Assembly (NCBI RefSeq): GCF_006517275.1
Contig: NZ_CP041191.1
Coordinates: forward strand, 496,001 to 560,000
Direction of reading: 5' to 3'
DNA length: 64,000 nt
From: Labrenzia sp. PHM005
GTDB taxonomy: Bacteria > Pseudomonadota > Alphaproteobacteria > Rhizobiales > Stappiaceae
Part shown: piece after piece, positions 8,294 to 34,398 of the stretch
How the letters are laid out: each line of letters opens with the position of its first letter
Position numbering within the stretch: position 1 is the first letter of the stretch
Translations under genes and position numbers: made by a program
The notes under the pieces: generated by a model
Database searches by the model: none
Told to the model about the DNA's origin: nothing
What the model saw: only the letters and a program-made list of their open reading frames with translations

Positions 8294-8397
8294 ACAGAAA
8301 GCAGAGCGCACATCATCCATTAACGGAATCTCGTTATTTGAAACTAGGTTCAGGCTAAGATCGGCCTAAATGACAAAAAAAGCCTGAATTAAGGTCG

Positions 8398-11262: not shown

Positions 11263-11268
11263 GATAAA

Positions 11269-14902: not shown

Positions 14903-15051
14903 GCTTAACGGCCTCATGTGCATAAATACATCAGTCTTGTACCAGGCTTCTCCCTAAAACGACGCGCTAGGACACTAGGTAAACGGAAAATATGTCCTTA
15001 GTATTTTCTTATGCTATTGATAATGAATAACACGCTATCCAAAGCGCAAAT

Positions 15052-16023: not shown

Positions 16024-16036
16024 AGATCCATTATCA

Positions 16037-17721: not shown

Positions 17722-18507
17722 ATGACGATTAGCACAGATCAATCGCCAAAGGATCCGCTGCCCTCAGCACGCCAGTCGTCATTCTCTCAATGCCAGTTTA
17801 TGGGATTGGAGTTTGATATAGGCGAGCAGGCAGAATGGTTGCCGCTCATCCTTAATATGAAGCCACAGACATTCGAGTTTTTTGTCACTCCGAACGTTTA
17901 TCACGTCATCCTTCTGGAGCGCGATATGCAGGTCGTATCGGCTTATGACGATGCTCGTTGGAAGGTCTGCGACAGCAAGATCTTAAGCCGGCTGGCACAC
18001 TCCCAGAATTTGGATCTGAAAGTGTATCCGGGGGCCGACATCGTACAGGACCTACTCGCAGATCCGAAGGCCCAAGATTTGCGTTTCGCTATCATAGGCC
18101 CCGACCTTTCCCAGATTGATACGCTGCGAACCAGATATCCCGATGTGGACATACAACACATACCGTCTGGGATCATGGACCGAAGAACACCAGAATGGGA
18201 GAAGGTTTTGACTGCTGCCGAAGCATGTCATGCGGACATCTTCCTGATTTGCCTATCGTTTCCAAAACAAGAGTATTTTGCTCAGGACCTGAAACGCCGT
18301 GGGAATGCCTCGGGTGTCGGCCTGTGCGTTGGCGCGAGCATTGACTTTCTGACCGGCCGGCAAAAACGCGCACCGGAGTGGATCCGTGCCTGTGGAATGG
18401 AGTGGGCTTTCCGGCTAGTGACGAACCCAAAACGGATGTGGCGCCGCTACCTCTGGGATGGCCCAAAAATCATATGGATGTTTTTAAAATGGCGCCATCA
18501 ATCCTGA
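17722..18507 (+). CDS. WecB/TagA/CpsF family glycosyltransferase (GT26)
   Basis: 261 residues. The family pattern is clear: FFVTPNVYHVILLERD near the start, CDSKILSR, LRFAIIGPD, FLICLSFPKQEYF, GVGLCVGASIDFLTGRQKRAP, and the final MEWAFRLVTNPKRMWRRY that ends nearly all members. These enzymes commonly add the second sugar (often an N-acetyl-mannosaminuronate or glucuronate-type residue) to an undecaprenyl-diphosphate-linked primer. The first-sugar phosphoglycosyltransferase is not in this window. It is followed by a GT4 gene in the same orientation, so the two are likely co-transcribed. Confidence 0.9.
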   Translation: MTISTDQSPKDPLPSARQSSFSQCQFMGLEFDIGEQAEWLPLILNMKPQTFEFFVTPNVYHVILLERDMQVVSAYDDARWKVCDSKILSRLAHSQNLDLKVYPGADIVQDLLADPKAQDLRFAIIGPDLSQIDTLRTRYPDVDIQHIPSGIMDRRTPEWEKVLTAAEACHADIFLICLSFPKQEYFAQDLKRRGNASGVGLCVGASIDFLTGRQKRAPEWIRACGMEWAFRLVTNPKRMWRRYLWDGPKIIWMFLKWRHQS

Positions 18508-18581
18508 AGATCAAAAAATAAGGGACCTTGGTTCCTGACAGGTGGAAAACAGCGCGTTGGCAGGGTCGCAGCGAAGCGGTT

Positions 18582-19898
18582 ATGCATCTCGCTTGGGAGA
18601 TACAATTGAAAAAACCTCGCGTCCTAATCCTTGCGGATGATTGTAATCCTGATTGGCCTTCGCTTCCGGTCGTTGGCTATAAATATGGGCTTTCCTTGGC
18701 AAAGTTCTGCGATGTCACCATCGCCACCCATCTCCGGAATCGCGAAAACATTGAGAAGGATCCGCGATCTAAGGGTGTCGACTTTCGTTACGTTGATAAT
18801 GAATACGTCGCAAGACCGATCCACCGCTTCTCAACCTGGATCAGAGGCGGCGGTAAGGTGGCATGGTCCTTGGCAATGATTTTTAAGTATCCGGCGTATC
18901 TCACTTTTGAGTGGGAAGTTTGGAAAACCTTCAAAAACGCTCTTATATCCGGCGAATACGATTTGGTGCATCGGATTACGCCAATGTCACCGACAATGCC
19001 AAGCTACATTGCCGGCAAATCGCCGGTTCCATTTGTCATCGGACCTTTGAACGGCAACCTGGATTGGCCGAAAGAATTCCGCTCTGAACAAAGTCGGGAA
19101 AAAGAGCGGGCCCGGGCGCTCAGAGACTTCTACAAGTACCTCCCCTATTCTTCCGCAACGTACAAAAATGCCAAGCTGATCCTTGCTGCCTTTGACCACA
19201 CAGCAAGGGACTTGCCGGAAAGCGCGTCCTCAAAGGTCGTGAGCTTTCCTGAAGTTGGCTTCGATCCTGAGTGGTTTAACACAACGGATAGGAAACCAGC
19301 ATTTGCCGGAGATACGCCATACAACTTCGCCTTCGTCGGGCGCTTGGTGCCTTACAAAGTCCCAGAGGTCGCAATTCGTGCCTTTTGCGAAAGCGACATT
19401 CTGGCAAGGCACAAGCTTCACATTGTCGGTGAGGGGCCAGAACGAGACCGTCTCGAAGAGATCGTCAGGCAAACCGGGCGCACTGATAGTGTCGTTTTTC
19501 ATGGCTGGATCGACCAGAAGGACGTCGGTCAATTTTTCAAAACCGTAGACGGGTTCGTCTTCCCTTCCATTCGCGAACTTGGCGCCGGTGTGGTGGTCGA
19601 AGCCATGGCGTCGGGGTGCGTGAATTTCGTAACCAACTACGGCGCCCCCGGTGATCTAGTGTCGGCAGATCGCGGCTTTCGTATAGAACTAAATAACCTC
19701 GATACAATGGTCGCGGGATACCGGCAAGCTATGGAAGAGGCTGTCACCAATCCAGGCAACCAGCACCTGAAGGCCAAGACTGCCGAGGAGTACGCCAGTG
19801 CCTGCTTGACCTGGAACCGTAAGGCTGCGCTGACTGTTCTCTATTATGACGACATAATAGCCGGCCGGCCGGTTACCGACCGCCGAGACTACACTTAA
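18582..19898 (+). CDS. Glycosyltransferase family 4
   Basis: About 438 residues with a GT-B fold. The N-terminal domain begins KKPRVLILADDC. The C-terminal domain has FAFVGRLVPYKVPEVAIRAF, LHIVGEGPERDRLE, VVFHGWIDQKD and FVFPSIRELGAGVVVEAMA, covering the donor-binding loop and the E-x7-E motif of GT4. The start is ambiguous: ATG 18582 is used, but TTG 18606 has the better Shine-Dalgarno (GGGAG seven bases away) and would begin MKKPRV; the frame opens at TTG 18528. It is downstream of the CpsF-type gene and convergent with the polyketide synthase. Confidence 0.88.
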   Translation: MHLAWEIQLKKPRVLILADDCNPDWPSLPVVGYKYGLSLAKFCDVTIATHLRNRENIEKDPRSKGVDFRYVDNEYVARPIHRFSTWIRGGGKVAWSLAMIFKYPAYLTFEWEVWKTFKNALISGEYDLVHRITPMSPTMPSYIAGKSPVPFVIGPLNGNLDWPKEFRSEQSREKERARALRDFYKYLPYSSATYKNAKLILAAFDHTARDLPESASSKVVSFPEVGFDPEWFNTTDRKPAFAGDTPYNFAFVGRLVPYKVPEVAIRAFCESDILARHKLHIVGEGPERDRLEEIVRQTGRTDSVVFHGWIDQKDVGQFFKTVDGFVFPSIRELGAGVVVEAMASGCVNFVTNYGAPGDLVSADRGFRIELNNLDTMVAGYRQAMEEAVTNPGNQHLKAKTAEEYASACLTWNRKAALTVLYYDDIIAGRPVTDRRDYT

Positions 19899-19941: not shown

Positions 19942-22900
19942 TCATTCAGCAGCAATCCTGGGCTTATCAGCGTCAGTTGCGTGCGCAGTCCCTTTTTCCA
20001 AAGATTTCCTCATTCGGCTAGCCAGTACCTGAATATACGGATTGAGCACCATTGAGTCATGGTCTCCAGGTACCTCGACAATCGACAGTTCTGAAACAAA
20101 CGGGGACCAGCCGTTGTCTTCACGAAGAATGTTCAGACCATCCTGAAGACGACGGCCGCCGGAAATCTTATAAAGCACCTCAGCCTTTGGCCGGTACAGG
20201 ACAACCGGTCCACTATATGGCCGAACCTCATAAGCATTATGCGCCCGCATGAAGGCCACACGGATCCGTTCGTTGTTAAAACTTTCTGCGGTTGCTTGAT
20301 CCCCGGCCGCATTCTTTTGAGCTTCTGTTCGAGCGCGCCACTCTCTCCGGTTGCGCAACCAAACACTGAAAAACTTGGCTTTATTTTTTTGAAGATCCTG
20401 CCACTTGATCATCACACGATCAATGAGGGAGAGGTGAACCTGTTCGGGTACAGGTGTGTCCAGCAAAATGACTTCGGCAACCTCTTCACCTTGTGCAGCA
20501 AGCTGTTGGGCCATTTCATAGGCAACGATCCCACCACCTGAGAACCCGCCGAGCATGTACGGCCCGTGTGGCTGGACCTGGCGGATTTCGGCAAGGTAAT
20601 CCCGCGCCATCTCTTCGAAGGTTTCGTGGGGTTCTTGATTTCCGAAGAGGCCGCGGGCCTGAAGTCCATAGACTGGCCGGTCGCGCCCAACGAGAAGGGC
20701 CAGCTGACGCAGGTTCAGGATGTTGCCGAACATGCCAGCGCAGATGAACAAAGGTGTCGCCGCAGTTCCGGGACCTTTGCTCATTGAAACCAGATGCACA
20801 GTTTCATCGGCTTTCGCCGTTTGTTCAGGTGTCGCCCCAGCTGATGTATCCCCTTCACTGGCGACACCATGTGAGGCCAGCAATTCGGCGCACTCGGCAA
20901 TTGTCGGAGCGTCGAAGAGGACGGACATGGGCAAATCGACACCATAAGTCTGGCGGATCATTCGGAACAGACGGACCGCGATAAGAGAATGTCCACCGAT
21001 ATCAAAGAAGTCATCGTGAATACCAATCTTCTCAATTCCGAGCAGCTCGGACCAGTATTCGGCCAGCTTGATCTCAAGTGGATTTCTTGGTGCTTCGTAG
21101 GCACTGTCAAGGTCGGGACGCTCAAAGAGCTGTCCATCCTGTACTTCTCGCGATTGCGCCTCAGCCTCGGCATTTTTCTTCAGCAGATCCAACGGCATCG
21201 TCGAGATGATCGGCTGTGCTTCGCCCGTCGCCAATGCCCGCTGCAGGGTCTCAAATCCTTGCTCTGGCGGAATGCCCTGCTTGACTTGGGCTGCAAGCTT
21301 GTAGAGCGCGGTTGCGTCCTGGCTTGCCCCGGTTTTAACGTCCTTTGCAAAACCAATGTCATTTGAGAGGCGTTTTACCGTCAAACAATCGGCTTCAATA
21401 ACCACCGTCCCATCGGGCCGCATGACGGTAATATCAAAACTGCCGAAACCGTCACCGTGTGCATTCTCATCGACAAATCGGACATGTGCGATCACGTCGG
21501 ATGGCAACGTTTCATACAGGCGGATCGCGGTGTAGGAGACGGGCGCCCAGAGGACACCGGAGCTCTTGAAGTCTTCAATAAGCTCCATTGCACAGCCGGT
21601 CGCGATATCGAGCAAGCCGGGATGAGCGTGAGTTGTTTCCGTATAATCTGTCTCGAAATCAGAGGCGGCGGTCAGGCGTGCCAGCGCTTCCCCACGCCCA
21701 AGCGACAGACTGCGCAACACATCCCACCGCGGCCCGAACCTGATATGATGCGCCTGAGCTGACGGCATCGTACCGTCGTCAGGTGCGTATCGGATATCGG
21801 TCCAGCGCGCCTGAGCTTGAAGGTCTTCAAGTTGCACAGGCAGTGGGATCGATTTGAGCGGACAAACCAGAGCTTCGGCGTAAACCTCCATCTCGGCGGA
21901 CGGATCTTCAGTTTCTGTTGCCGCGACAATGGCTTTCAAGGTGCCATTTCCCTGGGCCTGGAAACGGACCCGTATGTTCCGAGCCTGACCGTCGTCCAGG
22001 CCAAGCGGCTTAAAGAACACAAGATCGCGGATATCCGGGCGCTGGTCCAAATCCAGTTCTGAATAGGCTTGCGCGATCAGCTCGATGTACCCGGTGCCCG
22101 GCAATATCGCATCGCCTGAAACGAGCCTGTGCTCGTTCCACATCCAGTGCTTTTGCGTGCTTGCCGTGAATTCCAGCCAGCGCGTGTTGGAAGCATCGGC
22201 AATCCAGCGCTCGAACAAGGGGCCCTTGGCCGCCCCAAGCGTTGTTGCCGTCTCTGAAACAGCCGCCTCACTCGAAACCGCGCGCGCGGCCAGACCAACA
22301 TCGCTCCAGATGCCCCAGTGAACCGCGACCGTCCTGCGGCCACTGTCCCCGCTCTTGCTCTCAGCATAGGCGTTCAGAAACGCATTGGCAGCGACGTAAT
22401 CAATCTGGCCAATGGGCGCAGTGTCCGTGCTGGTTGATGAGAACAACACCATCAGATCCAAGGGCTCGTCGGCAAACACCATGTCCAGAACGCGTGTGCC
22501 GTGAACCTTGGGCGCCAGAACTTTCTGAGTGTTTTCAAGGCTCTTCAGTTGCACGAGATCATCGTCAACAATGCCCGCCGCGTGCAAGACGCCACTGATA
22601 GAACCAAACCGGGCCTTCGCTGCGGCAACAGCTGCGGTCACCTCTTCTGGGTTGGTGACATCAGCCGTTGCGTAAAGCACCCTCCCGCCCAGCACCTCGA
22701 GTTCAGAAAGACGGATCAACGCCTGGACACCCGGGTCATCACCGGAATGCGTGCGCAGATAGGTCTCCCGCTCCTGCTCCTCCGGCAGGCTGCGGCGTCC
22801 GACCAAAACGATGTTCGCATCGTATTCTTCAACGAGAGCCTTTGCGAAAATCATCGCCAGATCGCCAAGACCGCCAGTGATGAAATAGGTGCCGCCTTTT

Positions 22901-25900
22901 TGGAACTGACCTTCGAATTGCCCGTGTTCTAAGGACAAACGCCCGTAGGTCCGCTGCCATCTGCGGCTACCCCGATGGGCCACAATCTCGTTGGACGGCT
23001 TTGCGAAAAGCTCGTCCCACAGGTCGTCGAGCGCGCTCCATTGGGACTGTGTATTCGCAACCACTTCGATATCTAAGTCAATCAAGCGAGCCGAAAGGCC
23101 GGAAAGCTCCTTGGGCAAGACCTGAACCGGACCGAGGACCGTCGATTTGGACGGATACACGACAGGCTCGTCATCCACGCTCATCATTTTGTTTGTCAAA
23201 ACAGTAAGGTGCACCTCCTCGACGGCAGATTGCTCGTCAAGTGCCTGAGCAAGATAAAGCAGACTGTAGAAGCCGTCTTCCTGCATTTTTTCAAAGAAGT
23301 TGGAACCGGGCCGGTGGCTTTCATCCTGTGTCAGCAGCCAGCCGTGAACGATGTTTCGAGGAAAAGGGCCATCCTCGAGGATCCCCGTCACCAGGGCGTC
23401 GTAGCCCGGTTTGCCTTCCTCGCTGCACAGGATGTAAGTGTGGGGGTCGACCTTGGCGAACACATCTCCGCGCTGAACGGCCGTGACCTGATGTCCTGCG
23501 CTCTTCAACCTGCCGACAAGCTGTTCTCCTGTACCGGTATCGTCGAGAAAAATCAGCCAGGACTGAGGCTCTTTATCCGCCCCCGTGACAAAATCGGGAA
23601 TCGACCGTTTCCAAGCCGGACGGTATCCCCAGTCGCGCATGTCCTTTTGGCGCAAGAGAGGAATATCCATCCCTGCCTGATCGCCCTGCGTAACACTGCG
23701 CTTGACAAAATAGTGCTGCTGCTGAAACGCATAGGGCGGCAGTGAAACCCGCTTGGGGCCAAAGTCCCGCCAGCAACGCTCGACATCCGCCTTCAAGCCT
23801 GTGGCCCAGCACCGTCCGACTGCAGTCAGGAAAGACAGACGGTCATCCGTATTATCGTCGGCATGCGGCAGCGTGTTGAAGACCTGATTGGCGGTCACGT
23901 CCGCTTGCAACTTGGCCAGCGAGGACAAGGTTTTTCCCGGACCAACCTCTATATAAATCCGCTTCGGATCTGCGCTCAGACGGGTCATGCCGGCGCCGAA
24001 CTGAACGGTCGAGCGCAAATGCCGGACCCAATAGGACGGATCACAGGCCTCCGCATCCGTGAGCCAGTCTCCCGTAAGATTGGACATGATCGGAATTTGC
24101 GGTCGATTGAGTGCAATGCTGCGCAAGTACCGTTCAAACTCGGGCAGGATTTCCTCAAGCATCCGCGAATGCGCCGCGATATCGATGGCAATGCGGGTTG
24201 CGTCGATATCCTTTTCAAGGAGCGCATTCTGGAAGTCTGCCAGATCCCCGTCCCGCCCGGAAACAACGCAGAGTTCTGGCGCATTGACCGAAGCCATATC
24301 GAGAGTTTCCGGCATCAGCGCGCGGACTTCGGCCTCACTCAATGGGATGCTGAGCATGCCGCCGCGGTCGACCGTATCAAAGAGTTTGCCCCGGAGGTGA
24401 ACAAGGCCAACTGCGTCGCGATAGCTGAGGACGCCCGAGATACAGGCAGCTGTGTTCTCGCCCATGGAATGGCCGATCAATGCGGTCGGCTGGACACCCC
24501 AGCTCATCCACAAACGGGCCAGCGAAACTTCCAGGATCAAGATGGCCGGCAATTGCAGGGACGGTGTCAAGAAGCCATCGGCCGCCTGCCCAAGATCGGA
24601 GCCATCGGGCGGGAACCAAAGCTCCCGGATCCGGGCAGCCGTTTCGGACGGAAGGAAGCTTAGTCCTTCATCGACACTCTGGCGGAATGAACTGTCTTCC
24701 TGATTGAGCCGGTAGGCCATGCCGGGATGTTGTGCCCCGCCCCCCGGAAACAGGTACGTCGCGGTGCCGGGATGATCGCTGGCCTGATGAAGGGCGAGCC
24801 TTTTGGGCTGTTCACCGCGCAAGACAGCAATCGCATCGGCACGGCCCCGCACGGCTGCGATCTGACGGTGTTCGAAAGGCTTCCGACCATGAAAGAGCGT
24901 CTCGGCCGTGCTGGCCAGAGACAATGCTGGATTATTTTCCAGAGCATCCGCAAGACGCATGGCTGTGCCCGCCAGCCCCTTTTTTGCCTTGGCCGACAAG
25001 AGAATGAGTTGGGGCTCTTCGTCAAACCGCCCGCTATCATCGGCAACCATCGGCGCCTTTTCCAGAATGACGTGGGCGTTTGTTCCGCCAACGCCAAGTG
25101 AATTGACGGCGGCCCGTTGAGGACCGGCGGCCACCGGCCAGGGGGTCAGCGTGTCATTCACAACAAACGGGCTGTTCGCAAAATCGATTGATGGATTGGG
25201 TTTCTCGTATCCAAGGCTTGGCGGTATTTCACCATTCTTCAGCGCCAATGAGGCCTTGATCAGGCTAACAACACCGGCAGCCGTGTCCAAATGGCCAATG
25301 TTGGATTTCACGGATCCGACACGGCAATAGCCGGTTTGGCTGGTGCTTTGACGAAACGCCTGGGTCAGGGCTTCGATTTCAATCGGATCGCCGAGATATG
25401 TGCCGGTTCCGTGACATTCGACATACTGAATGGTGTCGGCTTCGATCCCGCCGAGCGCCTGCGCCTCGATGATCGCTTCCGCCTGTCCGGTCACGCTCGG
25501 TGCAAGGTAGCCTGCCTTGCTGTGACCGTCGTTGTTGATGGCCGACGCCTTGATCACCGCATGAATGTTGTCGCCGTCAGCAATTGCGTCCTCGAGACGT
25601 CGCAGGACGACAACCCCAACGCCACTGCCAAAGATCGTGCCTGCAGCCCGATGATCGAACGGTCGGCAATGCCCGTCCGGCGAGAGGATTTCGCCATCCT
25701 GAAAGACATACCCACGACGATGCGGCAGATCGATGGTCACACCGCCGGCCAGAGCCATATCGGTTTCGCCGTTCAACAGGCTTTGACAAGCGTAGTGAAC
25801 CGCGACAAGCGAGGTTGAGCAGGCCGTCTGGACGTTGACACTCGGGCCTTTGAGATCGAAAGCGTAAGAGGCGCGGGTCGCCAAAAAGTCCTTGTCGTTA

Positions 25901-26370
25901 CCGGTATGGCGAAGCAGGAACATGCCCACCTGATCCATCAGCTGCCGGTCACTGCAGACGTTGAAATAGAAATAGCTGCCCATGCCGCAGCCGGCATAAA
26001 CACCAACAGGACCTTCGATGGTTTCAGGCGGACGCCCGGCATCTTCGATCGCTTCCCAGGCACACTCGAGAAAGTGCCGGTGCTGCGGATCCATGATCGC
26101 GGCTTCCTTCGGGCTCAGCCCGAAAAACTCCGGATCGAACAGCTCCATGTCCGGAATATCCGCCGTCCGGGGAATGTAATTCGGCTGTGCGGCCTTCACC
26201 GGATCTTCGCCAGATGCTTCGAGTTCCGCGTCGCTCAGCGTGCGCACCGATTCAACACCGTTTCTGAGATTTTCCCAGAATTCGCCGGTGTTCCGTGCAC
26301 CTGGAACACGAAGAGCCATCCCGACGATTGCAACATCGTTCAGGCCGGCATCGGTTGATCCTATTGTCAT
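19942..26370 (-). CDS. Modular type I polyketide synthase: KS-AT-KR-DH-ACP-TE
   Basis: 2142 residues, one complete module. The ketosynthase (about 10-440) has Cys184 in QTACSTS, His320 in CHGTGT and His360 in SNIGHLD. The acyltransferase (about 535-850) has Ser635 in GHSMG; at the specificity position it reads IAAHS, neither malonyl HAFH nor methylmalonyl YASH. The ketoreductase (from about 1150) has ITGGLGDLA and an intact catalytic S/Y/N set (SSTST...DYVAANAF) plus a DDD after HAAGIV, suggesting B-type. The dehydratase (about 1400-1650) has HRLVSGDAILP and HPGLLDIATG. The carrier protein has GGHSL near 1795 and the thioesterase GFSGGG near 1943 with a late GDHDSM histidine. With a terminal TE it would release the final product. 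It is divergent from the NRPS at 26708. Confidence 0.92.
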   Translation of the reverse strand: MTIGSTDAGLNDVAIVGMALRVPGARNTGEFWENLRNGVESVRTLSDAELEASGEDPVKAAQPNYIPRTADIPDMELFDPEFFGLSPKEAAIMDPQHRHFLECAWEAIEDAGRPPETIEGPVGVYAGCGMGSYFYFNVCSDRQLMDQVGMFLLRHTGNDKDFLATRASYAFDLKGPSVNVQTACSTSLVAVHYACQSLLNGETDMALAGGVTIDLPHRRGYVFQDGEILSPDGHCRPFDHRAAGTIFGSGVGVVVLRRLEDAIADGDNIHAVIKASAINNDGHSKAGYLAPSVTGQAEAIIEAQALGGIEADTIQYVECHGTGTYLGDPIEIEALTQAFRQSTSQTGYCRVGSVKSNIGHLDTAAGVVSLIKASLALKNGEIPPSLGYEKPNPSIDFANSPFVVNDTLTPWPVAAGPQRAAVNSLGVGGTNAHVILEKAPMVADDSGRFDEEPQLILLSAKAKKGLAGTAMRLADALENNPALSLASTAETLFHGRKPFEHRQIAAVRGRADAIAVLRGEQPKRLALHQASDHPGTATYLFPGGGAQHPGMAYRLNQEDSSFRQSVDEGLSFLPSETAARIRELWFPPDGSDLGQAADGFLTPSLQLPAILILEVSLARLWMSWGVQPTALIGHSMGENTAACISGVLSYRDAVGLVHLRGKLFDTVDRGGMLSIPLSEAEVRALMPETLDMASVNAPELCVVSGRDGDLADFQNALLEKDIDATRIAIDIAAHSRMLEEILPEFERYLRSIALNRPQIPIMSNLTGDWLTDAEACDPSYWVRHLRSTVQFGAGMTRLSADPKRIYIEVGPGKTLSSLAKLQADVTANQVFNTLPHADDNTDDRLSFLTAVGRCWATGLKADVERCWRDFGPKRVSLPPYAFQQQHYFVKRSVTQGDQAGMDIPLLRQKDMRDWGYRPAWKRSIPDFVTGADKEPQSWLIFLDDTGTGEQLVGRLKSAGHQVTAVQRGDVFAKVDPHTYILCSEEGKPGYDALVTGILEDGPFPRNIVHGWLLTQDESHRPGSNFFEKMQEDGFYSLLYLAQALDEQSAVEEVHLTVLTNKMMSVDDEPVVYPSKSTVLGPVQVLPKELSGLSARLIDLDIEVVANTQSQWSALDDLWDELFAKPSNEIVAHRGSRRWQRTYGRLSLEHGQFEGQFQKGGTYFITGGLGDLAMIFAKALVEEYDANIVLVGRRSLPEEQERETYLRTHSGDDPGVQALIRLSELEVLGGRVLYATADVTNPEEVTAAVAAAKARFGSISGVLHAAGIVDDDLVQLKSLENTQKVLAPKVHGTRVLDMVFADEPLDLMVLFSSTSTDTAPIGQIDYVAANAFLNAYAESKSGDSGRRTVAVHWGIWSDVGLAARAVSSEAAVSETATTLGAAKGPLFERWIADASNTRWLEFTASTQKHWMWNEHRLVSGDAILPGTGYIELIAQAYSELDLDQRPDIRDLVFFKPLGLDDGQARNIRVRFQAQGNGTLKAIVAATETEDPSAEMEVYAEALVCPLKSIPLPVQLEDLQAQARWTDIRYAPDDGTMPSAQAHHIRFGPRWDVLRSLSLGRGEALARLTAASDFETDYTETTHAHPGLLDIATGCAMELIEDFKSSGVLWAPVSYTAIRLYETLPSDVIAHVRFVDENAHGDGFGSFDITVMRPDGTVVIEADCLTVKRLSNDIGFAKDVKTGASQDATALYKLAAQVKQGIPPEQGFETLQRALATGEAQPIISTMPLDLLKKNAEAEAQSREVQDGQLFERPDLDSAYEAPRNPLEIKLAEYWSELLGIEKIGIHDDFFDIGGHSLIAVRLFRMIRQTYGVDLPMSVLFDAPTIAECAELLASHGVASEGDTSAGATPEQTAKADETVHLVSMSKGPGTAATPLFICAGMFGNILNLRQLALLVGRDRPVYGLQARGLFGNQEPHETFEEMARDYLAEIRQVQPHGPYMLGGFSGGGIVAYEMAQQLAAQGEEVAEVILLDTPVPEQVHLSLIDRVMIKWQDLQKNKAKFFSVWLRNRREWRARTEAQKNAAGDQATAESFNNERIRVAFMRAHNAYEVRPYSGPVVLYRPKAEVLYKISGGRRLQDGLNILREDNGWSPFVSELSIVEVPGDHDSMVLNPYIQVLASRMRKSLEKGTAHATDADKPRIAAE

Positions 26371-26707
26371 TTCAATTTTCCGGAAACGGTATTTCGCCTC
26401 AATTTGTTGCGCGCACCATATCTGTAAATATTTAGCATAGTGTTAGGCCGACTGAGATATGCAAACGGCAATTTGGTTTTCGTGTGATCAAACGCAGATC
26501 ACCAAAATACACCCAAACGCCGACCCTAAATCTTAATTAATTTTAATAAACAGGCCCTTTCACGTGTGTATTAAGAGAATTTGGACAAACATCCGTAAAT
26601 TCTCGGATAAATTAACGTGTTCTTCGAGGGTATATGCATACTTGTCCTCGAACTCTTTTCACAAAGAATTTGCGAATGCCCAGATTGCGTCATCCAAGGG
26701 AACCTAA
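26371..26707. promoter_or_regulatory. Divergent control region between the PKS and the NRPS
   Basis: AT-rich and without a gene. It must hold both promoters of the biosynthetic locus. At 26484-26502 there is a perfect 6-bp dyad, GTGATC-N7-GATCAC, embedded in similar flanks, the size expected for a dimeric regulator. At 26623-26652 a 7-bp stem (TTCGAGG/CCTCGAA) with an inner GTAT/ATAC pairing lies 55 bp before the NRPS start and would be in its mRNA leader. The NRPS start has AAGGGAA as its ribosome-binding site. No regulator gene lies in the locus. Confidence 0.45.
26484..26502. promoter_or_regulatory. Candidate operator, GTGATC-N7-GATCAC
   Basis: A perfect dyad with 6-bp arms and a 7-bp spacer, midway between the divergent PKS and NRPS starts. 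Its geometry suits a GntR/LacI/LuxR-like dimer. The cognate regulator is unknown, and the call rests on symmetry and position only. Confidence 0.35.
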
Positions 26708-29700
26708 ATGCTTGATTGTCTCCTAATAGGCGATGAATCCCTCCTTGTTCAGTGTGGCGAACACCTGAAAGATCGCGGACACCGCATTGTTGCGGTTGTT
26801 TCATCCAATCCGGCTCTTCACAACTGGGCAGAAGCCCAAGGTATTTTGGCAACAGAGTGGGGCAACTCTCTTGAGGATGCTACGGCAGGCTTTCACTTCG
26901 ACTGGCTATTCAGCATTGCCAATCTGAGGATGCTTCCCGACACCGTTTGGCAACGGGCGCGCGCCGGTGCGGTGAATTTTCACGACGGACCTCTGCCACG
27001 ATACGCAGGTCTCAATGCACCGGCTTGGGCCATCCTCGAGGGTGAACAGCGCTTCGGTGTCACCTGGCATGAGATAGTGTCAGGTGCGGACAAGGGCCGG
27101 ATCTACACGCAAGCTGACTTTGACATCAGCCCCGACGAGACCAGCCTCACCTTGAATGCCAAATGCTTTGAGGCCGGTTACACAAGTTTTGTCGATCTCA
27201 TCGCCAAAGTGGACAGCAATACGCTAAACGGAATTGCGCAGGATTTTTCAAAACGCAGCTACTTCGGAAAAAACAAGCGCCCGACGCTTTCCGGAACACT
27301 CGACCTATCCCGGACATCAGAGGAGCTGTCGCGGCTTTTCCGGGCCCTTAGCTTCGGAGAGGGGTACGCGAACCCACTGGTCACGCCAAAATTGCGAACC
27401 AATCGCGGTCTATTCAAGATTACCAAACTCGATTTAACGCCGCCCGGTACTCCAAACGGGCCTGCCGGGACTGTTCTGCAGACCGGTCCAGACGGCGTGC
27501 TTGTAGCCACCGGCGACCAACCGATTTTGCTGGACGGTATTGCGATTGGCTCGGACGCAAACCTGGCACAGTCCGTAACGCTCAATGAACAACTACCTAT
27601 CTATTCTGCCGAAGAAGCGGCCGTCCTCGATGCCGCAGTCCTCGATGCCGTCCGTCATGAAGATGCAGATATTGCCACGATCAAAACGCTCGAAATACCG
27701 AGCCTTTTCGGAATCAAGGACGACGCTGAACGTGTGGCTGCGCCAGAAGTCCTGCCGTTGTCACTTCCCTCCTCAATGGCATCGCAGGACACCATTGCGG
27801 CAATCGTCCTGTTTGTCGGAAGGTTCTCGGGCCAAGACCATTTTGGTCTCGCTTATCTCGGACCAAAGAGCCCGTCGGTCGCGGATCAGTTTCCTGGCCA
27901 TTTTTCGGAAAGCCTTCCATTTCCGATCAATATCGATTGGCAGCGGCCCTTAAGCGCCCTTTATGACGACATCAATGCCAAGTTGGCGCAATTGCGGGAC
28001 AGGACTGCCCCCCTGTCCGATCTGATCTCCCGGGTGCCCGGGATGGCGCGGCCGGCATATACAATCGGAATTGTTGAAACCGAAGCAGCGAACACGCGGC
28101 CGGAGCTTCTGGCCGACTGTGCACTGACATTTAACGTTTCTGCCCAGGGCAAGGCTGCGCTGATCTTCGATCCGTCGCGGCTCTCGGCCGAAACGGCAAG
28201 ACAGTTTGCCAAGCGCGTTGAACTCGTTGCTGCTGTCCTATCTGACAAGGAACAAGTGGCCGCAGATGTCGCCATGATGTCCGAGGACGAGCGTGACCTT
28301 GTACTCAATCGCTGGAACGCGTCTGCCACGGATGTGGATCTGGAGATCTGCGTTCATCAGATGATTGAACGTCAGGCGGAGGCAACGCCGGACGCTCCGG
28401 CAGTTGCGCTGCACGATCAGTCCATCAGCTACCGGGAGCTGAACGGGCGCGCAAATCGCGTTGCCATGGAACTGCAAACACTCGGCGCAAGACCGGACAA
28501 GCTTGTCGGGTTGAACATTCCCCGGTCCATTGAGATGGTCTGCGGTGCCCTTGGAATTTTGAAATCGGGCGCTGCTTACGTTCCACTCGATCCCGACTTC
28601 CCAAATGATCGTCTGACCTACATGGTCGAAGACAGCGGTGCATCGGTTATCCTGTCCAGCCGCGCACTTCCAGAGCCGCTTACGGCGCCTGGTGTCCGGA
28701 CCGTGTTCATTGAGGACGTTCTGGCGCGCATTGCCTCAGCAGAACAGCCACAGACCGGCGTTCAATCAGACAATCTCGCTTATGTGATCTACACATCAGG
28801 TTCGACCGGACGGCCGAAGGGCGTGATGGTCGAGCACCGGAATGTCGTCAATTTCTTTGCAGGAATGGACGATCGCATTGAAATCGATCAGCAAGAACAA
28901 CCGGTCTGGCTTGCTGTCACAAGTCTTTCCTTCGACATCTCCGTCCTTGAACTTTTCTGGACCCTGACCCGCGGCTTCAAGGTCGTCATTCATTCCTCTG
29001 AAACGGCAACCTCGCAGGACAGCACAACACCTGAAGCGCAAGGCTCCGGGAAGGCGGCAAACGTCGATTTTGGGCTGTTTTTCTGGGGCTACAATGAAGG
29101 CGCCGGTCGCGACCTTTACAAGCTGCTCCTGGAGGGTGCCAAATTTGCCGACGAAAACGGCTTCACATCGGTCTGGACGCCAGAGCGCCATTTCCATTCC
29201 TTTGGTGGCCTTTATCCCAATCCGTCCGTTTCCGGTGCAGCGGTTGCGGCCGTTACGAGGAATCTCTCGATCCGAGCCGGCAGCTGCGTGCTTCCCCTTC
29301 ACCACCCGGCACGGGTTGCCGAGGAGTGGTCGGTGATCGACAACCTTAGCAACGGCCGGGTCGCCCTTGCTTTTGCGTCCGGCTGGATGCCCGAGGACTT
29401 TGTGCTACGCCCGGAAAACAGGCCGCCGAACAACAAGGCGGCCATGTACCGGGACATTGAAACCGTTCGGAAACTCTGGCGTGGAGACGCGGTGGACTTT
29501 GATTCCGGCGACAAGACTGTCAGCGTCGTCACGCAGCCTCGACCCGTTCAAAACGAACTGCCGGTCTGGCTAACCACAGCTGGTAACCCTGAGACTTATC
29601 GGGATGCAGCCCGCAACGGGGCCAATGTTTTGACCCACCTTCTCGGGCAATCCATCGATGAGCTGGCTGGCAAGATCAAGATCTATCGGGACACCCTGAT

Positions 29701-31351
29701 TGAATGCGGCCGCAATCCGAATGACTACAAGGTCACCCTGATGCTGCACACGCTCCTCGGAGAGGACCGGGATGAGGTGATGGACCGCGCGCGTGGTCCA
29801 ATGAAGGAATATCTACGCAGCGCGGCAGCGTTGATTAAGCAATACGCTTGGGCGTTTCCAGCTTTCAAGAAGCCGGAAGGTGCGAGCAATCCAATGGATA
29901 TCGACCTGCAGACGCTCTCGGAAGACGAGCTGGACGCGATCCTGGAGTTTGCATTCCTACGCTACTTTGAAGACAGCGGGCTGTTCGGTACGGTCTCCGA
30001 TGCGCTCAAGCGCGTGGAACAAATCAGTGCCATCGGTGTCAACGAGGTCGCCTGCTTAATCGATTTTGGTGTGCCTCAGGACATCGCCCTTGACCGGTTG
30101 AAGCCCTTGGCCGAGGTTGTTCGGCGCGTAAACGCGGGCGAAGTACAAATGCCCGTCGAGCATACACCGCCCGTCGGCGCGGGCCTCGCCGCAGACCTTG
30201 CCCGCCACAACGTCACGCACATGCAGTGCACGCCGTCCATGGCGCGGATGTTCCTCACCCGCGAAGAAGATCGGGCAGCATTTTCCAGGATCCAGCATCT
30301 CTATATCGGTGGGGAACCGTTCCCGGGGTCGCTCCTGAAGGACATTCGGGCATGCACTTCGGCCTCGGTCACAAACATGTATGGCCCGACCGAGACGACG
30401 ATCTGGTCATCGACTGCAAAAGTGGGCGCTCCTGAGCAGACAATTCCGCTGGGAACGCCAATTGCCAACACCCAGCTCTATGTGCTTGACGCCAGAAATG
30501 AACCTGCAGCTCCGGGCCAACCCGGCGAACTGTTCATAGGTGGCGAAGGAGTCACACGCGGATATTTCCAGCGTCCGGAGCTGACCGAAGAGCGGTTCGT
30601 GACAAACCCGTTCGCGCCCGGCCGCATGTACCGTACCGGAGATCTCGTATGCAGGCTTGAAGATGGCAGCCTGCAATTCCTGGGGCGAACGGACCACCAG
30701 GTTAAGGTGCGGGGATACCGGATCGAGCTTGGTGAAATCGAGTCCCGGATTGCTGCGCATTCCGGCGTGGTCGAGACCGTTGTCACCGCACGCGAAGACC
30801 GGGCTGATGATGTCCGGTTGGTCGCCTATGTTCGGACCCGGTCTGGATCGCTCGACGAAGCCGTGTTGCGCTCGGAGCTGCATGACGCGCTGCCGGAATA
30901 CATGGTTCCCGCTCATTTCGTCGTGTTGGAGGCTTTCCCGCTCACACCAAATGCAAAGATTGACCGGAAAGCTCTGCCAGCACCTGATGCAACGGTTCGC
31001 GAGACGGCCCAAAGTGCCTTTGTCGCGCCAGAGAGCGACATGCAGAAATCCATCGCGGATGCATATCAGCGGATCCTCGGGCTGAGCCAGGTGGGGCAGA
31101 ACGACAACTTCTTCAACCTTGGCGGACATTCCCTGCTTGCGGTCCAGCTCCACCGGGACCTGAAAGTCAGTGTGGCTCCAAATCTAACAATCACCGACAT
31201 CTTCCGTTTTCCGACCGTTGGCGGCCTTGCCGGACACCTGACGGACGGCGGCCGCGCTGATGAGCGCCTCGGCGAAGTTGCAAGCAGGGCGGCCAAGCGC
31301 CGGGCGGCGCTAAGCGCACGGCGGCAAGCCCTCTCCGGGAACCGGGGGTGA
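26708..31351 (+). CDS. Hybrid NRPS: formyltransferase - partial condensation - adenylation with inserted luciferase-like monooxygenase - PCP
   Basis: 1547 residues. Residues 1-190 are a formyltransferase-like domain with N90 and H92 in NFHDGPLP and D128 in GADKG, matching the catalytic Asn/His/Asp of Fmt-type enzymes. Residues about 355-540 resemble only the C-terminal half of a condensation domain; no HHxxxDG is present. The adenylation domain starts near 549 (YTSGSTGRPKG, SFDISVLELF), is interrupted at about 786-1140 by an FMN-dependent luciferase-like monooxygenase (VDFGLFFWGYNEG ... WTPERHFHSFGG), and resumes to NMYGPTETT and NAKIDRKAL. The carrier Ser lies in GGHSLLAVQL near 1475. This is the architecture of the MupA/Atu3671 family. 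Hand alignment gives the specificity code D-I-L-Q-Y-G-M-I-W-K, close to the glycine code. Confidence 0.9.
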   Translation: MLDCLLIGDESLLVQCGEHLKDRGHRIVAVVSSNPALHNWAEAQGILATEWGNSLEDATAGFHFDWLFSIANLRMLPDTVWQRARAGAVNFHDGPLPRYAGLNAPAWAILEGEQRFGVTWHEIVSGADKGRIYTQADFDISPDETSLTLNAKCFEAGYTSFVDLIAKVDSNTLNGIAQDFSKRSYFGKNKRPTLSGTLDLSRTSEELSRLFRALSFGEGYANPLVTPKLRTNRGLFKITKLDLTPPGTPNGPAGTVLQTGPDGVLVATGDQPILLDGIAIGSDANLAQSVTLNEQLPIYSAEEAAVLDAAVLDAVRHEDADIATIKTLEIPSLFGIKDDAERVAAPEVLPLSLPSSMASQDTIAAIVLFVGRFSGQDHFGLAYLGPKSPSVADQFPGHFSESLPFPINIDWQRPLSALYDDINAKLAQLRDRTAPLSDLISRVPGMARPAYTIGIVETEAANTRPELLADCALTFNVSAQGKAALIFDPSRLSAETARQFAKRVELVAAVLSDKEQVAADVAMMSEDERDLVLNRWNASATDVDLEICVHQMIERQAEATPDAPAVALHDQSISYRELNGRANRVAMELQTLGARPDKLVGLNIPRSIEMVCGALGILKSGAAYVPLDPDFPNDRLTYMVEDSGASVILSSRALPEPLTAPGVRTVFIEDVLARIASAEQPQTGVQSDNLAYVIYTSGSTGRPKGVMVEHRNVVNFFAGMDDRIEIDQQEQPVWLAVTSLSFDISVLELFWTLTRGFKVVIHSSETATSQDSTTPEAQGSGKAANVDFGLFFWGYNEGAGRDLYKLLLEGAKFADENGFTSVWTPERHFHSFGGLYPNPSVSGAAVAAVTRNLSIRAGSCVLPLHHPARVAEEWSVIDNLSNGRVALAFASGWMPEDFVLRPENRPPNNKAAMYRDIETVRKLWRGDAVDFDSGDKTVSVVTQPRPVQNELPVWLTTAGNPETYRDAARNGANVLTHLLGQSIDELAGKIKIYRDTLIECGRNPNDYKVTLMLHTLLGEDRDEVMDRARGPMKEYLRSAAALIKQYAWAFPAFKKPEGASNPMDIDLQTLSEDELDAILEFAFLRYFEDSGLFGTVSDALKRVEQISAIGVNEVACLIDFGVPQDIALDRLKPLAEVVRRVNAGEVQMPVEHTPPVGAGLAADLARHNVTHMQCTPSMARMFLTREEDRAAFSRIQHLYIGGEPFPGSLLKDIRACTSASVTNMYGPTETTIWSSTAKVGAPEQTIPLGTPIANTQLYVLDARNEPAAPGQPGELFIGGEGVTRGYFQRPELTEERFVTNPFAPGRMYRTGDLVCRLEDGSLQFLGRTDHQVKVRGYRIELGEIESRIAAHSGVVETVVTAREDRADDVRLVAYVRTRSGSLDEAVLRSELHDALPEYMVPAHFVVLEAFPLTPNAKIDRKALPAPDATVRETAQSAFVAPESDMQKSIADAYQRILGLSQVGQNDNFFNLGGHSLLAVQLHRDLKVSVAPNLTITDIFRFPTVGGLAGHLTDGGRADERLGEVASRAAKRRAALSARRQALSGNRG

Positions 31352-31361
31352 CGGCACAGCC

Positions 31362-32033
31362 ATGCTTTGGAATCTCTTTCCGAGCGAGGTTAAGATCGCC
31401 GTGGGAGATCCGCGCGCCAGAAAACCGACCGGATATCCGGATGAGGAAACCCATGTGGCCAATGCGGTTACGTCGCGCCGGTCGGAGTTTTTTGCTGGAC
31501 GGGAGTGCGCCCGCAAAGCGATGCGAGACCTTGGCTTTCAGCCAACTGCCATTGGTGTACGCCCCGATCGCAGTCCGATCTGGCCCAACGGTTTGATTGG
31601 CACCATCAGCCACAGCAGAACACTGTGTCTCGCGGCGGTCGCGCTGCAGAATGACGATGCTCTCTCAATCGGACTCGATATTGAACCCGATTCACCTCTC
31701 CCCGAAGACATGTGGGACACCATTTGTACTTCAAACGAACGTAGCTGGCTTGCCGGGCTACCTAGTGACCAACGGACTCGGCAGGCACTCAGGATGTTTA
31801 CGGCCAAGGAAAGTGCTTACAAGGCGCAGTACCCGCTCACGCAGGAGTTTTTGGAGTTTGAGGATCTGGAAATCGCATTTTACGGACATGATTTCTCCGC
31901 AGTGTTCCAGCGCAGTGTCCCGAGCTTTGCCAAGGGGACAAAACTGCGGGGCCGCCAGGTGATTTATCACGGGCATGTCGTGTCAGCGGTCTGTGTCGGA
32001 TCTGATCAATTCAACAAAGGCGCAGTGTCATGA
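31362..32033 (+). CDS. 4'-phosphopantetheinyl transferase, EntD/Sfp type
   Basis: 223 residues. The three family motifs are present: GTISHS (P1/P2 region), GLDIE near residue 105 with the Mg-binding Asp, and FTAKESAYKAQYP with the W/FxxKEAxxK-type signature. It moves the phosphopantetheine arm of CoA onto carrier-protein serines, here presumably the PKS ACP and the NRPS PCP. It starts 10 bp after the NRPS stop and its own stop overlaps the next ATG by 4 bp, so it is part of the NRPS transcript. A dedicated activating enzyme argues that the megasynthases are a self-contained functional locus. Confidence 0.93.
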   Translation: MLWNLFPSEVKIAVGDPRARKPTGYPDEETHVANAVTSRRSEFFAGRECARKAMRDLGFQPTAIGVRPDRSPIWPNGLIGTISHSRTLCLAAVALQNDDALSIGLDIEPDSPLPEDMWDTICTSNERSWLAGLPSDQRTRQALRMFTAKESAYKAQYPLTQEFLEFEDLEIAFYGHDFSAVFQRSVPSFAKGTKLRGRQVIYHGHVVSAVCVGSDQFNKGAVS

Positions 32034-33274
32034 GCGAAAGAGCAGACCAGCGCGGTGGACGAGTGCTTTTCGTCACCGCTGTACGGTTGCGCAGAGGACC
32101 GAGGGGTTTGCAGCTGGATGACCAGACCTGCGCCGGCCTTTCCCAGTGGGCCAAAAGTTTCGAACATGTCACTTATATGGGCATTGAGCAGCCCACCGAT
32201 CTGGAAGACGACACCACGGTCACCTGGATCGATATTGCCGACCTTGACTGCCGCGACCAGCTCACGGTCGTTGCGCTCCCGTTCGCATATAAAATCGGAC
32301 GATTTTTCAAAGACTACACATCAACCCGGCAGGCGCTTGCCGAAGAGATCGCCAAAGCAGATCACTTGTGTTTCACGCTCGGCTACTTGTTTGGTGACTG
32401 GGCCGCTGTGGCAGCTCTGGAAGCGATCAAACAAAATCGGGACTATGCCGTTTGGTTTGACCGGGTCGAGCACGATGTTATTCGCAGAACGCTGCCCGCG
32501 ATACCGCTTAAGCGGCGGATCAAGGAAGTCGTGACGCTGCCCGTGATGGTCCGGTACCATGAGTATCTGATCCGGCACAGCAAACTAGGCTTGTTTCAGG
32601 GGCAAGATACGCTGAGGGCCTATGCGGCCCATTCAGACAACCCCCATTGTGTTTATGATGTTCACACGCAGTCCAGCGATTTGATCAGTGCGGCAGCGCA
32701 GGAAGAGAAAACCAAACGCGCGCAACTCGGCGCGCCGCTCAAAATCCTTTATGTGGGGCGCGTCTCGGAGATGAAGGGACCGCTCGATTGGGTCGAGGCT
32801 ATCTCGAATGCGGTCCAAGCCGGTGTCCCATTGCAAGCAAAGTGGATCGGAGACGGTCCTCTTCTGACAGATATGAAGCAAAGAATTTCAACGCTTAAGC
32901 TGGAAACTCAAATCGAATTGCCAGGATTTTCGTCTGACCGGAAGGCAATTCTTACGGAAATGCGCGATGCCGATCTTTTCGTCTATTGCCACAAGACGCA
33001 GGAATCGCCCCGATGCCTTATTGAGGCGCTTGTCTCAGGGTGCCCGATCGTGGGCTACCAATCGTCATACTCCGATGACCTTGTAAGCCAAAATGGCGGC
33101 GGGATCGGCACGCCGCTCAATGACCCAGCAGCCCTTAGTGTGGAACTCCAGAACCTGAACCATGATAGGGGCCGTCTGGCTCAGCTTGTAAAGGCTGCCG
33201 CCGCAGATGGAAGCCGGTTCGACGAACAAACCCTTTATGCCCATAGAGCCGGCCTCATTCGAGAGTATGCGTGA
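32030..33274 (+). CDS. Glycosyltransferase family 4 coupled to the PKS/NRPS locus
   Basis: 414 residues, GT-B fold. The C-terminal domain has LKILYVGRVSEMKGPLDWVE, AKWIGDGPL, ELPGFSSDRK and DLFVYCHKTQESPRCLIEAL, covering the donor loop and E-x7-E region. The N-terminal half is less typical but includes RVLFVTAV and a hydrophobic alpha/beta pattern. It overlaps the phosphopantetheinyl transferase by 4 bp (ATGA) and the next gene by 4 bp, so translation is coupled. Its membership in the NRPS transcript suggests it either glycosylates the PKS/NRPS product or builds the glycan that receives it; the sequence cannot decide between these. Confidence 0.85.
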   Translation: MSERADQRGGRVLFVTAVRLRRGPRGLQLDDQTCAGLSQWAKSFEHVTYMGIEQPTDLEDDTTVTWIDIADLDCRDQLTVVALPFAYKIGRFFKDYTSTRQALAEEIAKADHLCFTLGYLFGDWAAVAALEAIKQNRDYAVWFDRVEHDVIRRTLPAIPLKRRIKEVVTLPVMVRYHEYLIRHSKLGLFQGQDTLRAYAAHSDNPHCVYDVHTQSSDLISAAAQEEKTKRAQLGAPLKILYVGRVSEMKGPLDWVEAISNAVQAGVPLQAKWIGDGPLLTDMKQRISTLKLETQIELPGFSSDRKAILTEMRDADLFVYCHKTQESPRCLIEALVSGCPIVGYQSSYSDDLVSQNGGGIGTPLNDPAALSVELQNLNHDRGRLAQLVKAAAADGSRFDEQTLYAHRAGLIREYA

Positions 33275-34398
33275 TGACCTGGGTTCGGGTATTTTTGATT
33301 TTGGGCTGTGGGCTGTTCCTGACAATCGCCGTTACCGTTACGGTCGTCTCTTTGTCCAGTGGACCGGCCCTGACGACAACCGGCTTTCCATCCCTGCCTC
33401 AAGACGGTGAGACACCTGCCGTGCAAAAGATCTTCATTTCCGGGCACAGCCTGACCGATCGTCCAATGCCCGAGATGCTGGCGGCAATTGCTAAGAGCTC
33501 CGGACAACCGGTCACCTGGAACATGCAGCATATCGGCGGCTCTTCGATCAAACAGCGCAGCCATGGACTGGACGACCAGTCGCCCTGGTCCGGATACAGT
33601 GACGGGACGGATCGGGACGGTGCCCCCATCAATGTCTTGGAGACGCTCGCTGCCAGTCCTGCAGAGGATACCCAGCCTTATGATGTATTCTTGATCACCG
33701 AACAACACCGTCTGCTGGATTCCCTCGTGTGGCAGGAAACCCCTCGGTTCCTCCGGGCATATCAGGATGTGTATCACGCGCATAATCCGACTGGACAAAG
33801 CTACTTCTACGCGCCCTGGCTGGATGTTGCGAACCTTGAAGATCCATCTTCATGGATCACCTATGAACGCAAGGCCTGGCCAGTCTGGCAATGTGCCGTT
33901 GCAACTGTCAACGCAGGGCTCGCGAATGACGGCCGGGAAGACAGGATCATGCTGGTCCCGGCTTCGCTGGCATTGGCCGACCTAGTGGAGCAGCTGACCT
34001 CTGCGCCGGCAGGGCTGCCAGGTTTCAAGGATATGCCTGCGCAAGATATCCTTGCCGCATTGTTCAGTGACAGTGTTCACCTGACCCCCTTGGGCAACTC
34101 GTTCATGGCAGCCATTGTCTATGGCACACTGTCGGGACGTTCCATACCGCAGACAGAATTTGCAAACCTGCCCGATGACCAGTCAGCAACCCTTCAGGAC
34201 ATCGCCAATCGTTTCATTACGACCTATCGCACCCAGATGCCAACCTTCGGCGAGAGCTGCACGGAAATGGTGCCACCCTCCTTCAAGGTCGCCTACCCGG
34301 CCTACACCGAAGAAATGGCGAGACAAAGTGGAACCGGTTTCTTAAAGGCCCGGCTCCAGCGTCTCAAGGAAACCCTGAGCTATTTCCGGCGCCTTTGA
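33271..34398 (+). CDS. Membrane-anchored SGNH/GDSL-like hydrolase
   Basis: 375 residues. A single hydrophobic segment at about 7-28 acts as a signal anchor, placing the rest in the periplasm. IFISGHSLTD (Ser60) corresponds to the GDS block with Ser as nucleophile, HIGGSS near 88-92 fits the oxyanion Gly block, and SDSVHLTPLGN near 265-274 supplies the D-x-x-H pair. SGNH enzymes add or remove O-acyl groups. The GTG start overlaps the glycosyltransferase stop by 4 bp, with an alternative ATG at 33274. As the last gene of the NRPS-led operon it is a candidate for placing the product on a glycan, or for removing it, in the periplasm. I do not recognise a closer subfamily. Confidence 0.7.
   Translation: MMTWVRVFLILGCGLFLTIAVTVTVVSLSSGPALTTTGFPSLPQDGETPAVQKIFISGHSLTDRPMPEMLAAIAKSSGQPVTWNMQHIGGSSIKQRSHGLDDQSPWSGYSDGTDRDGAPINVLETLAASPAEDTQPYDVFLITEQHRLLDSLVWQETPRFLRAYQDVYHAHNPTGQSYFYAPWLDVANLEDPSSWITYERKAWPVWQCAVATVNAGLANDGREDRIMLVPASLALADLVEQLTSAPAGLPGFKDMPAQDILAALFSDSVHLTPLGNSFMAAIVYGTLSGRSIPQTEFANLPDDQSATLQDIANRFITTYRTQMPTFGESCTEMVPPSFKVAYPAYTEEMARQSGTGFLKARLQRLKETLSYFRRL

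Follow-up and report, generated by a model that had tools for sequence, protein, structure and literature searches.

A Formylating, Glycine-Oxidizing Peptide Synthetase and Its Polyketide Synthase Partner at the End of a Wzx/Wzy-Type Exopolysaccharide Locus in Labrenzia: a Candidate Route to Polysaccharide Decoration

What would a bacterium make with one polyketide synthase (PKS) and one nonribosomal peptide synthetase (NRPS) whose genes adjoin an exopolysaccharide locus? The question is raised by Labrenzia sp. PHM005, in a 64,000-nucleotide stretch (the window, bases 496001 to 560000 of contig NZ_CP041191.1 in the 6.19-Mb genome) where the original prediction had placed genes for a PKS, an NRPS, a phosphopantetheinyl transferase, a glycosyltransferase (GT), and an SGNH hydrolase. 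All five open reading frames (ORFs) stand at those positions and are open. The reading that we favor, with a probability of about 0.58, is that a dedicated pathway makes a small acyl group derived from formylglycine, with which an exopolysaccharide of the Wzx/Wzy route is decorated or into which the group is incorporated. The putative product, its presumed attachment to a glycan, and the probable NRPS-to-PKS direction are read from the domains and the location of the genes. The features concerned are as follows.

19942..26370, minus strand: type I PKS of 2142 amino acids, KS-AT-KR-DH-ACP-TE (Pfam; motifs in 71 aligned sequences)
26371..26707: intergenic region of 337 bp, from which the PKS and NRPS genes diverge
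26708..31351, plus strand: NRPS of 1547 amino acids, FT-A(MLM)-PCP (Pfam, NCBIfam, motifs, alignment)
NRPS residues 1 to ~300: formyltransferase
NRPS residues ~471 to 558: remnant of the C-lobe of a condensation (C) domain
NRPS residues ~548 to 768 and ~1150 to 1423: adenylation (A) domain, in two parts
NRPS residues 789 to 1137: MLM monooxygenase inside the A domain
NRPS residues 1449 to 1511: PCP
31362..32033, plus strand: Sfp-type 4'-phosphopantetheinyl transferase (PPTase; Pfam 4PPT_N and ACPS)
32030..33274, plus strand: GT4-type glycosyltransferase (Pfam Glycos_transf_1), sharing 4 bp with the end of the PPTase gene
33271..34398, plus strand: SGNH hydrolase/transferase, periplasmic type (N-terminal hydrophobic helix; GHSL and D267xxH270)

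The NRPS and PPTase genes are 10 bp apart, and the PPTase/GT4 and GT4/SGNH junctions overlap by 4 bp each, a spacing that fits the predicted co-expression of these four genes and makes their co-translation likely.

The link between the NRPS/PKS pair and polysaccharide genes is strong. From a scan of genome contigs, the best 80 of 163 relatives were taken as 78 loci, and neighbor profiles were built from the genes recurring around them. A PKS was found in 74 of the 78 loci, with a GT2 family member often lying between PKS and NRPS (52/78). Of the 58 loci that spanned 24 kb or more, 57 had one or more of Wzx, Wzz, kinase, Wzy, WecG, and Wza, and 53 had two or more; the 8/78 loci with none of the six families were mostly short ones. 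Because these profiles derive from the same loci, the count was repeated with the independent Pfam profiles for Wzz (PF02706) and Wzx (PF13440). TIGR04020, the family of the monooxygenase embedded in the NRPS, was found above cut-off in 84 genomes of a 248-genome family sample, taken as Rhodobacteraceae since named records of that family match the loci found there. Twenty of these carriers were sampled, with 20-kb stretches serving for neighbors and whole genomes for Pfam Wzz/Wzx. In 18 of the 20 genomes Wzz lay no more than 20 kb from the NRPS (background, 0.0144 per point), being the sole Wzz match of the genome in 11, and in 15 Wzx was equally close (background, 0.0236 per point); the binomial values, 1e-31 and 5e-21, respectively, overstate independence because the loci share descent, although the contrast with background is large nonetheless. 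The 20-kb stretches had a PKS match in 20/20 cases, GT2 between PKS and NRPS in 14, and at least two polysaccharide families in 16. The genome-neighborhood search proposed with the original prediction thus places NRPS/PKS relatives next to Wzx/Wzy-type genes far above background.

The same grouping recurs on plasmids. On pUSP1 of Aminobacter sp. MSH1, 13 of 28 queried window proteins matched together (33 to 59% identity), comprising the operon and polysaccharide genes; a 14th match was an unrelated ABC ATPase. This pUSP1 stretch includes the PKS, NRPS, PPTase, GT (58% identical to the operon GT4 and in the same position), GH9 protein (48% identical), an O-antigen-ligase family protein, an export protein, a flippase, GTs, and a methyltransferase; the SGNH match is annotated as hypothetical and the Wzz match as YhjQ/BcsQ. 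PKS, GT2, and NRPS genes form one run, with gaps of 2 to 3 bp or overlaps of 4 to 14 bp, on plasmids of Ruegeria conchae, Ruegeria sp. SCSIO 43209, and Paracoccus liaowanqingii, making 3/5 annotated plasmid loci with GT2 between PKS and NRPS; the NRPS is followed by a PPTase in R. conchae and Paracoccus and by a short ORF and a transposase in SCSIO 43209. Shinella zoogloeoides has a flippase, PKS, NRPS, PPTase, WecG, GT2, and a polyprenyl glycosylphosphotransferase, and genes annotated as "acyltransferase family" lie nearby in 2/5 annotated plasmid loci. Outside Proteobacteria, to judge by its name, a "Salinivenus" metagenome-assembled genome carries GDSL hydrolase, PPTase, NRPS, GT2, PKS, and DegT genes consecutively. 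The 11 further genomes sampled from this strain's taxonomic family all lack the TIGR04020 marker, which, together with the plasmid occurrence, suggests that the NRPS/PKS polysaccharide locus moves between genomes.

In the window itself, the polysaccharide genes lie to the left of the PKS.

5558..8320, minus strand: GH9-family glycoside hydrolase, member of the polysaccharide locus
8398..9774, plus strand: Wzy / O-antigen-ligase family polymerase (PF04932)
9946..11262, plus strand: Wza-type polysaccharide export protein (PF02563)
11269..12840, plus strand: Wzz / tyrosine-autokinase-like co-polymerase (PF02706)
12837..14090, plus strand: GT4 glycosyltransferase, EpsE-like (below the NCBIfam cut-off)
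14192..14923, minus strand: S-adenosylmethionine (SAM) methyltransferase
15052..16047, minus strand: GT2 glycosyltransferase
16037..17392, minus strand: Wzx-type flippase (PF13440)
17722..18507, plus strand: WecG/TagA/CpsF glycosyltransferase (PF03808)
18528..19898, plus strand: GT4 glycosyltransferase, EpsH-like (below the NCBIfam cut-off)

Another GT2 gene also lies left of the PKS, alongside the GH9 and Wzx/Wzy genes. With a flippase, a polymerase, a co-polymerase/kinase, an export protein, and glycosyltransferases, the genes from 8398 to 19898 make up a Wzx/Wzy-dependent set. The predicted flanking by Wzx/Wzy-type genes therefore holds for the left side and fails for the right, where the scanned genes that follow the SGNH gene belong to general metabolism and transport (FAA hydrolase, GST, M24 peptidase, ABC transporter); the operon forms the right-hand border of the polysaccharide locus and is not enclosed by it. 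The genome holds four Wzz matches, one of them at this locus. No initiating phosphoglycosyltransferase of the Bac_transf type was found in the window (the WecA type, PF00953, was not searched for); four Bac_transf proteins are encoded elsewhere in the genome, the nearest ~130 kb from the operon, and in two relatives (L017 and L029) one lies within the locus. At the left edge, a tyrosine integrase (2615 to 3889) and a conflict-system nucleotidyltransferase (713 to 2266) would fit a mobile island.

What might the two enzymes make? The NRPS is 92 to 93% identical to proteins of Alphaproteobacteria bacterium AO1-B and an uncultured Labrenzia. Its monooxygenase belongs to TIGR04020 (MupA/Atu3671-family luciferase-like; 470.6 bits against a cut-off of 244.45) and, with A4-like FDIS (742 to 745) and A5-like NMYGPTE (1223 to 1229) as A-domain landmarks, is inserted between A4 and A5. 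The ten-residue A-domain code, hand-mapped from the motifs, reads DILQYGMIWK; 73 of 76 aligned NRPSs have DILQxGMIWK, and the remaining three differ at one further position. In the available portion of PMC12283262, four glycine A domains with MOX all read DILQLGMIWK, and the window code fits glycine. The N90/H92/D128 triad of the formyltransferase, an active-looking domain fused ahead of A-PCP, is retained in 74/76 NRPSs and the PCP serine in 76/76. Pfam matched neither a condensation domain nor a TE in the NRPS, and only residues ~471 to 558 align with the C-terminal part of C domains; an ordinary C domain at 345 to 545 was considered and rejected (a C-lobe match only, no HHxxxDG seen). What had been called an NRPS module is thus an A(MLM)-PCP unit with its formyltransferase, as predicted, lacking the condensation domain that the term implies. 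The best PDB sequence matches are LgrA chains, and a fold search with a 560-residue model of the NRPS, in which the second half was barely probed, was dominated by formyltransferase folds.

The PKS has all the motifs expected of its KS, AT, KR, DH, ACP, and TE domains, with KR ahead of DH and no Pfam match for an ER domain. The KR S/Y/N set, the ACP GGHSL, and the TE GxSxG are each kept in 70/71 aligned PKSs, the KS TACST motif in 68 (three are gapped), and the AT motif IAAHS in 67, making malonate the likely, though not certain, extender. As to the accessory proteins, the PPTase is one of three ACPS-family matches genome-wide. The SGNH assignment had no supporting Pfam or PDB sequence match; the predicted fold, which is akin to that of carbohydrate esterases, upholds it, and the catalytic Ser, Asp, and His are in place.

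A pathway can be proposed on this basis. The PPTase would arm the carrier proteins of the NRPS and PKS. The NRPS would adenylate glycine, load it onto its own PCP, and N-formylate it with its own formyltransferase, after which the embedded flavin monooxygenase would hydroxylate the alpha carbon to give an N-formyl-alpha-hydroxyglycyl unit; alternatively, collapse of the carbinolamide would yield glyoxylyl, with loss of the nitrogen. The PKS would accept this unit and carry out one extension, probably with malonate, followed by reduction and dehydration, and the TE would hydrolyze or transfer an acid of about four carbons (one glycine plus one malonate). Finally, the operon GT and the periplasmic SGNH protein may place the group on the glycan, shift it along, or take it off. 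The NRPS-to-PKS direction is sensible because only the PKS has a terminal TE, the NRPS having neither a TE nor a recognizable full condensation domain, and the NRPS-then-PKS gene order of three relatives (L084, L067, and L070) agrees with it. The very small product foreseen by the original prediction fits one loading and one extension module, TE release, and the glycine code; its "aminobutyryl" unit is compatible, since glycine plus one malonyl makes a four-carbon acid, and glyoxylyl is also possible. The predicted acyl decoration of a glycan fares well in its polysaccharide setting, which the neighborhood counts bear out, while the acyl group on the glycan is what we infer from that setting.

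Several known systems share parts of this design. Relative to the glycine A-MOX modules of myxothiazol and melithiazol (MtaG and MelG), the window NRPS has an N-terminal formyltransferase at the place of the C domain and no TE after the PCP, and should therefore start a chain rather than end it. Those modules likewise have a glycine code and the monooxygenase between A4 and A5 (PMC10204066 and PMC11342130, parts available); the monooxygenase hydroxylates the glycine alpha carbon, and carbinolamide cleavage leads to a glyoxyl thioester, while solanimycin B, according to the same part of PMC10204066, retains the hydroxyl. According to that source, flavin monooxygenases hydroxylate glycine at its alpha carbon for solanimycin and skyllamycin as well; these are antibiotic assembly lines, and the SolF domain lies between a8 and a9, in contrast to the A4-A5 position in the window. 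The linear gramicidin synthetase LgrA also has a formyltransferase ahead of A-PCP, from which the window NRPS differs by the C-lobe remnant between formyltransferase and A domain, the monooxygenase within the A domain, the single PKS partner, and the polysaccharide setting. As in the window, a type I PKS stands in the polysaccharide clusters of RkpA (rhizobial) and WcbR (Burkholderia capsule); the portion of PMC3908369 available mentions no NRPS, formyltransferase, or monooxygenase partner for them, and the likeness is one of gene setting. What is new here is a polysaccharide locus with a type I PKS, for which RkpA/WcbR are the precedent, plus a formylating, glycine-oxidizing NRPS partner. No NRPS/PKS pair inside an exopolysaccharide locus was found described in targeted searches of open-access PMC full texts, as far as their text was available, and the available parts of PMC4062626, PMC4359443, and PMC3806328 held nothing on this locus.

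Four alternatives have to be weighed. Of these the most serious, although we consider it unlikely, is that the two enzymes produce a small free metabolite (a signal, pigment, antioxidant, or antimicrobial), perhaps glycosylated by the GT, that merely shares its location and expression with the exopolysaccharide because both serve a biofilm lifestyle. Most products of NRPS/PKS systems are free metabolites, and the divergent loci L084, L085, and L106 keep NRPS and PKS with no polysaccharide family detected. Against this, the PKS, GT, NRPS, PPTase, and SGNH run is repeatedly embedded in Wzx/Wzy loci, the GT lies inside the run in several lineages, and no MFS or MatE exporter was matched among the 45 window ORFs covered by the Pfam scan, some smaller ORFs falling outside it. 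Location, operon GT, SGNH protein, and the lack of such an exporter match are what link the proposed product to a glycan.

A second alternative, clearly less probable, is that an iterative PKS makes a lipid or acyl primer or anchor for the polysaccharide in the manner of RkpA/WcbR, with a formylglycine head. The type I PKS genes wcbR and rkpA do belong to capsule clusters (PMC3908369, available part), and the window PKS has KR, DH, and TE domains. Arguing the other way are the missing ER match, the fixed FT-A(MLM)-PCP partner, which implies a defined starter, and the undecaprenyl-type initiators (Bac_transf) within loci L017 and L029.

Very improbable, in turn, is a siderophore pathway of the fabrubactin kind, to which the NCBI protein name "MupA/Atu3671 family" might point; that name, however, describes the monooxygenase domain. 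The fabrubactin pathway of Agrobacterium fabrum, in the Atu3671 region, has this monooxygenase family (TIGR04020) in common with the window NRPS. Its setting is that of a siderophore (PMC12971057, part available), whereas the window has a polysaccharide locus with no siderophore transport genes nearby; the comparison draws on that source and the family name. The original prediction was accordingly right that the contexts differ and that the families are alike, the latter for the monooxygenase only. No TonB receptor lay closer than 45 kb to the monooxygenase domain in any of the 34 carrier genomes inspected, several of whose contigs end earlier (the nearest receptor lay ~50 kb away in G763 and the next ~97 kb away in G238; 9/34 genomes had none), and FecCD permeases were absent within 200 kb in 6/6 genomes, so that such pairs are not consistently found beside siderophore transport genes. 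No TonB receptor or FecCD protein was matched among the scanned window ORFs, as had been predicted for siderophore receptors and exporters at this locus, and no Fur-box-like 19-mer was present in the window with up to three mismatches allowed. With the TonB receptor, FecCD, and Fur-box searches all negative, we rule against a siderophore. A chance meeting of two unrelated gene sets, one a biosynthetic cluster and the other an exopolysaccharide locus, conceivable in that a locus missing from the 11 other sampled family members is gained and lost and might insert at any site, is rejected for the main clade by the Pfam-based Wzz and Wzx counts (18/20 and 15/20 against backgrounds of 1.4% and 2.4%) and by the same 13 proteins standing together on the Aminobacter plasmid.

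A number of observations nevertheless weigh against a decorated polysaccharide. No enzyme in the window is an obvious candidate for attaching the group, neither MBOAT nor Acyl_transf_3 being matched among the 45 scanned ORFs, and PKS and NRPS are divergently oriented there. In the first survey, a PPTase was found in 55/78 loci and an SGNH protein in 36/78, counts to which profile limits and contig ends contribute, and a GT beside the NRPS is not universal (Shinella and Hyphomicrobium loci). Four of the 20 sampled Rhodobacteraceae stretches had none of the six families, two of them (G810 and G854) with Wzz just beyond the edge. Neither Wzz nor Wzx was nearby in G819/L106 and G891/L109, and Wzx was not nearby in G810, G854, and G866. 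In the divergent loci L084 and L085, NRPS and PKS stand in tandem with no polysaccharide family; L106 (G819) likewise keeps the tandem without one; L067 has ABC transporters and a PPTase nearby and no polysaccharide link; and L096/G634, an order-wide match, has no polysaccharide family in 20 kb. The TIGR04020 cut-off was passed by 10/297 genomes order-wide and 13/387 class-wide, several of these matches being enzymes other than this NRPS.

Relatives lacking the link are a minority, mostly of one divergent clade. Among the tree members listed, the main clade does not include L083, L084, L085, L097, L106, L067, or L070. The neighbors of L083 are an epimerase and a GT4, L097 has Wzy and Wzz, L070 has its pair surrounded by a GDSL hydrolase, PPTase, GT2, and DegT aminotransferase, and L084 has a TPP enzyme and a GST upstream with ZnuA also nearby. 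The L084/L085/L106 type is possibly a free-metabolite version of the pathway, and the pathway may originally have served to make a free product, becoming tied to polysaccharide genes in a single clade.

Further observations concern the relatives and the marker family. A second TIGR04020 monooxygenase, a stand-alone ORF of 373 amino acids, is encoded ~270 kb from the NRPS (L095, same contig, 788500 to 808400), downstream of a PKS frame of at least 3311 amino acids with two KS, an ECH, and no AT match; a separate AT gene lies nearby, and the whole looks like a trans-AT PKS cluster; labrenzin-type (pederin family) products are known from Labrenzia. The R. conchae plasmid (L129) carries the VPLPA-CTERM exosortase XrtD and rhamnose genes upstream of its PKS-GT2-NRPS-PPTase run. 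In many Rhodobacteraceae loci the SGNH gene is adjoined by proteins of 845 amino acids (L032:18457-20994 and relatives) with an SGNH-like GHSL start that runs on into a long conserved domain containing the stretch ELSNEVWN; neither a Pfam or NCBIfam match nor a convincing relative in the PDB was obtained for this domain, which is glycosidase-like by eye, a resemblance on which we do not rely.

Extended beyond Labrenzia, the reading becomes a tentative one, short of an even chance: a class of alphaproteobacterial exopolysaccharides may be decorated or internally linked by an NRPS/PKS-made group composed of N-formyl-alpha-hydroxyglycine or glyoxylyl plus one malonate. Non-sugar groups govern the gelling, sticking, metal binding, and enzyme resistance of exopolysaccharides, and those known come mostly from simple donors such as acetyl-CoA, phosphoenolpyruvate, succinyl-CoA, and amino acids. 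If our reading is true, substitution of a polysaccharide by an assembly-line product would be a mode of which we found no description, and it would greatly widen the chemistry available to biofilm polymers. Genome-mining tools may class such loci as orphan siderophore or antibiotic clusters. About one third of the sampled Rhodobacteraceae genomes (84/248) bear the TIGR04020 marker, and the pair with its helper genes lies within the sugar-polymer loci of many marine and soil bacteria.

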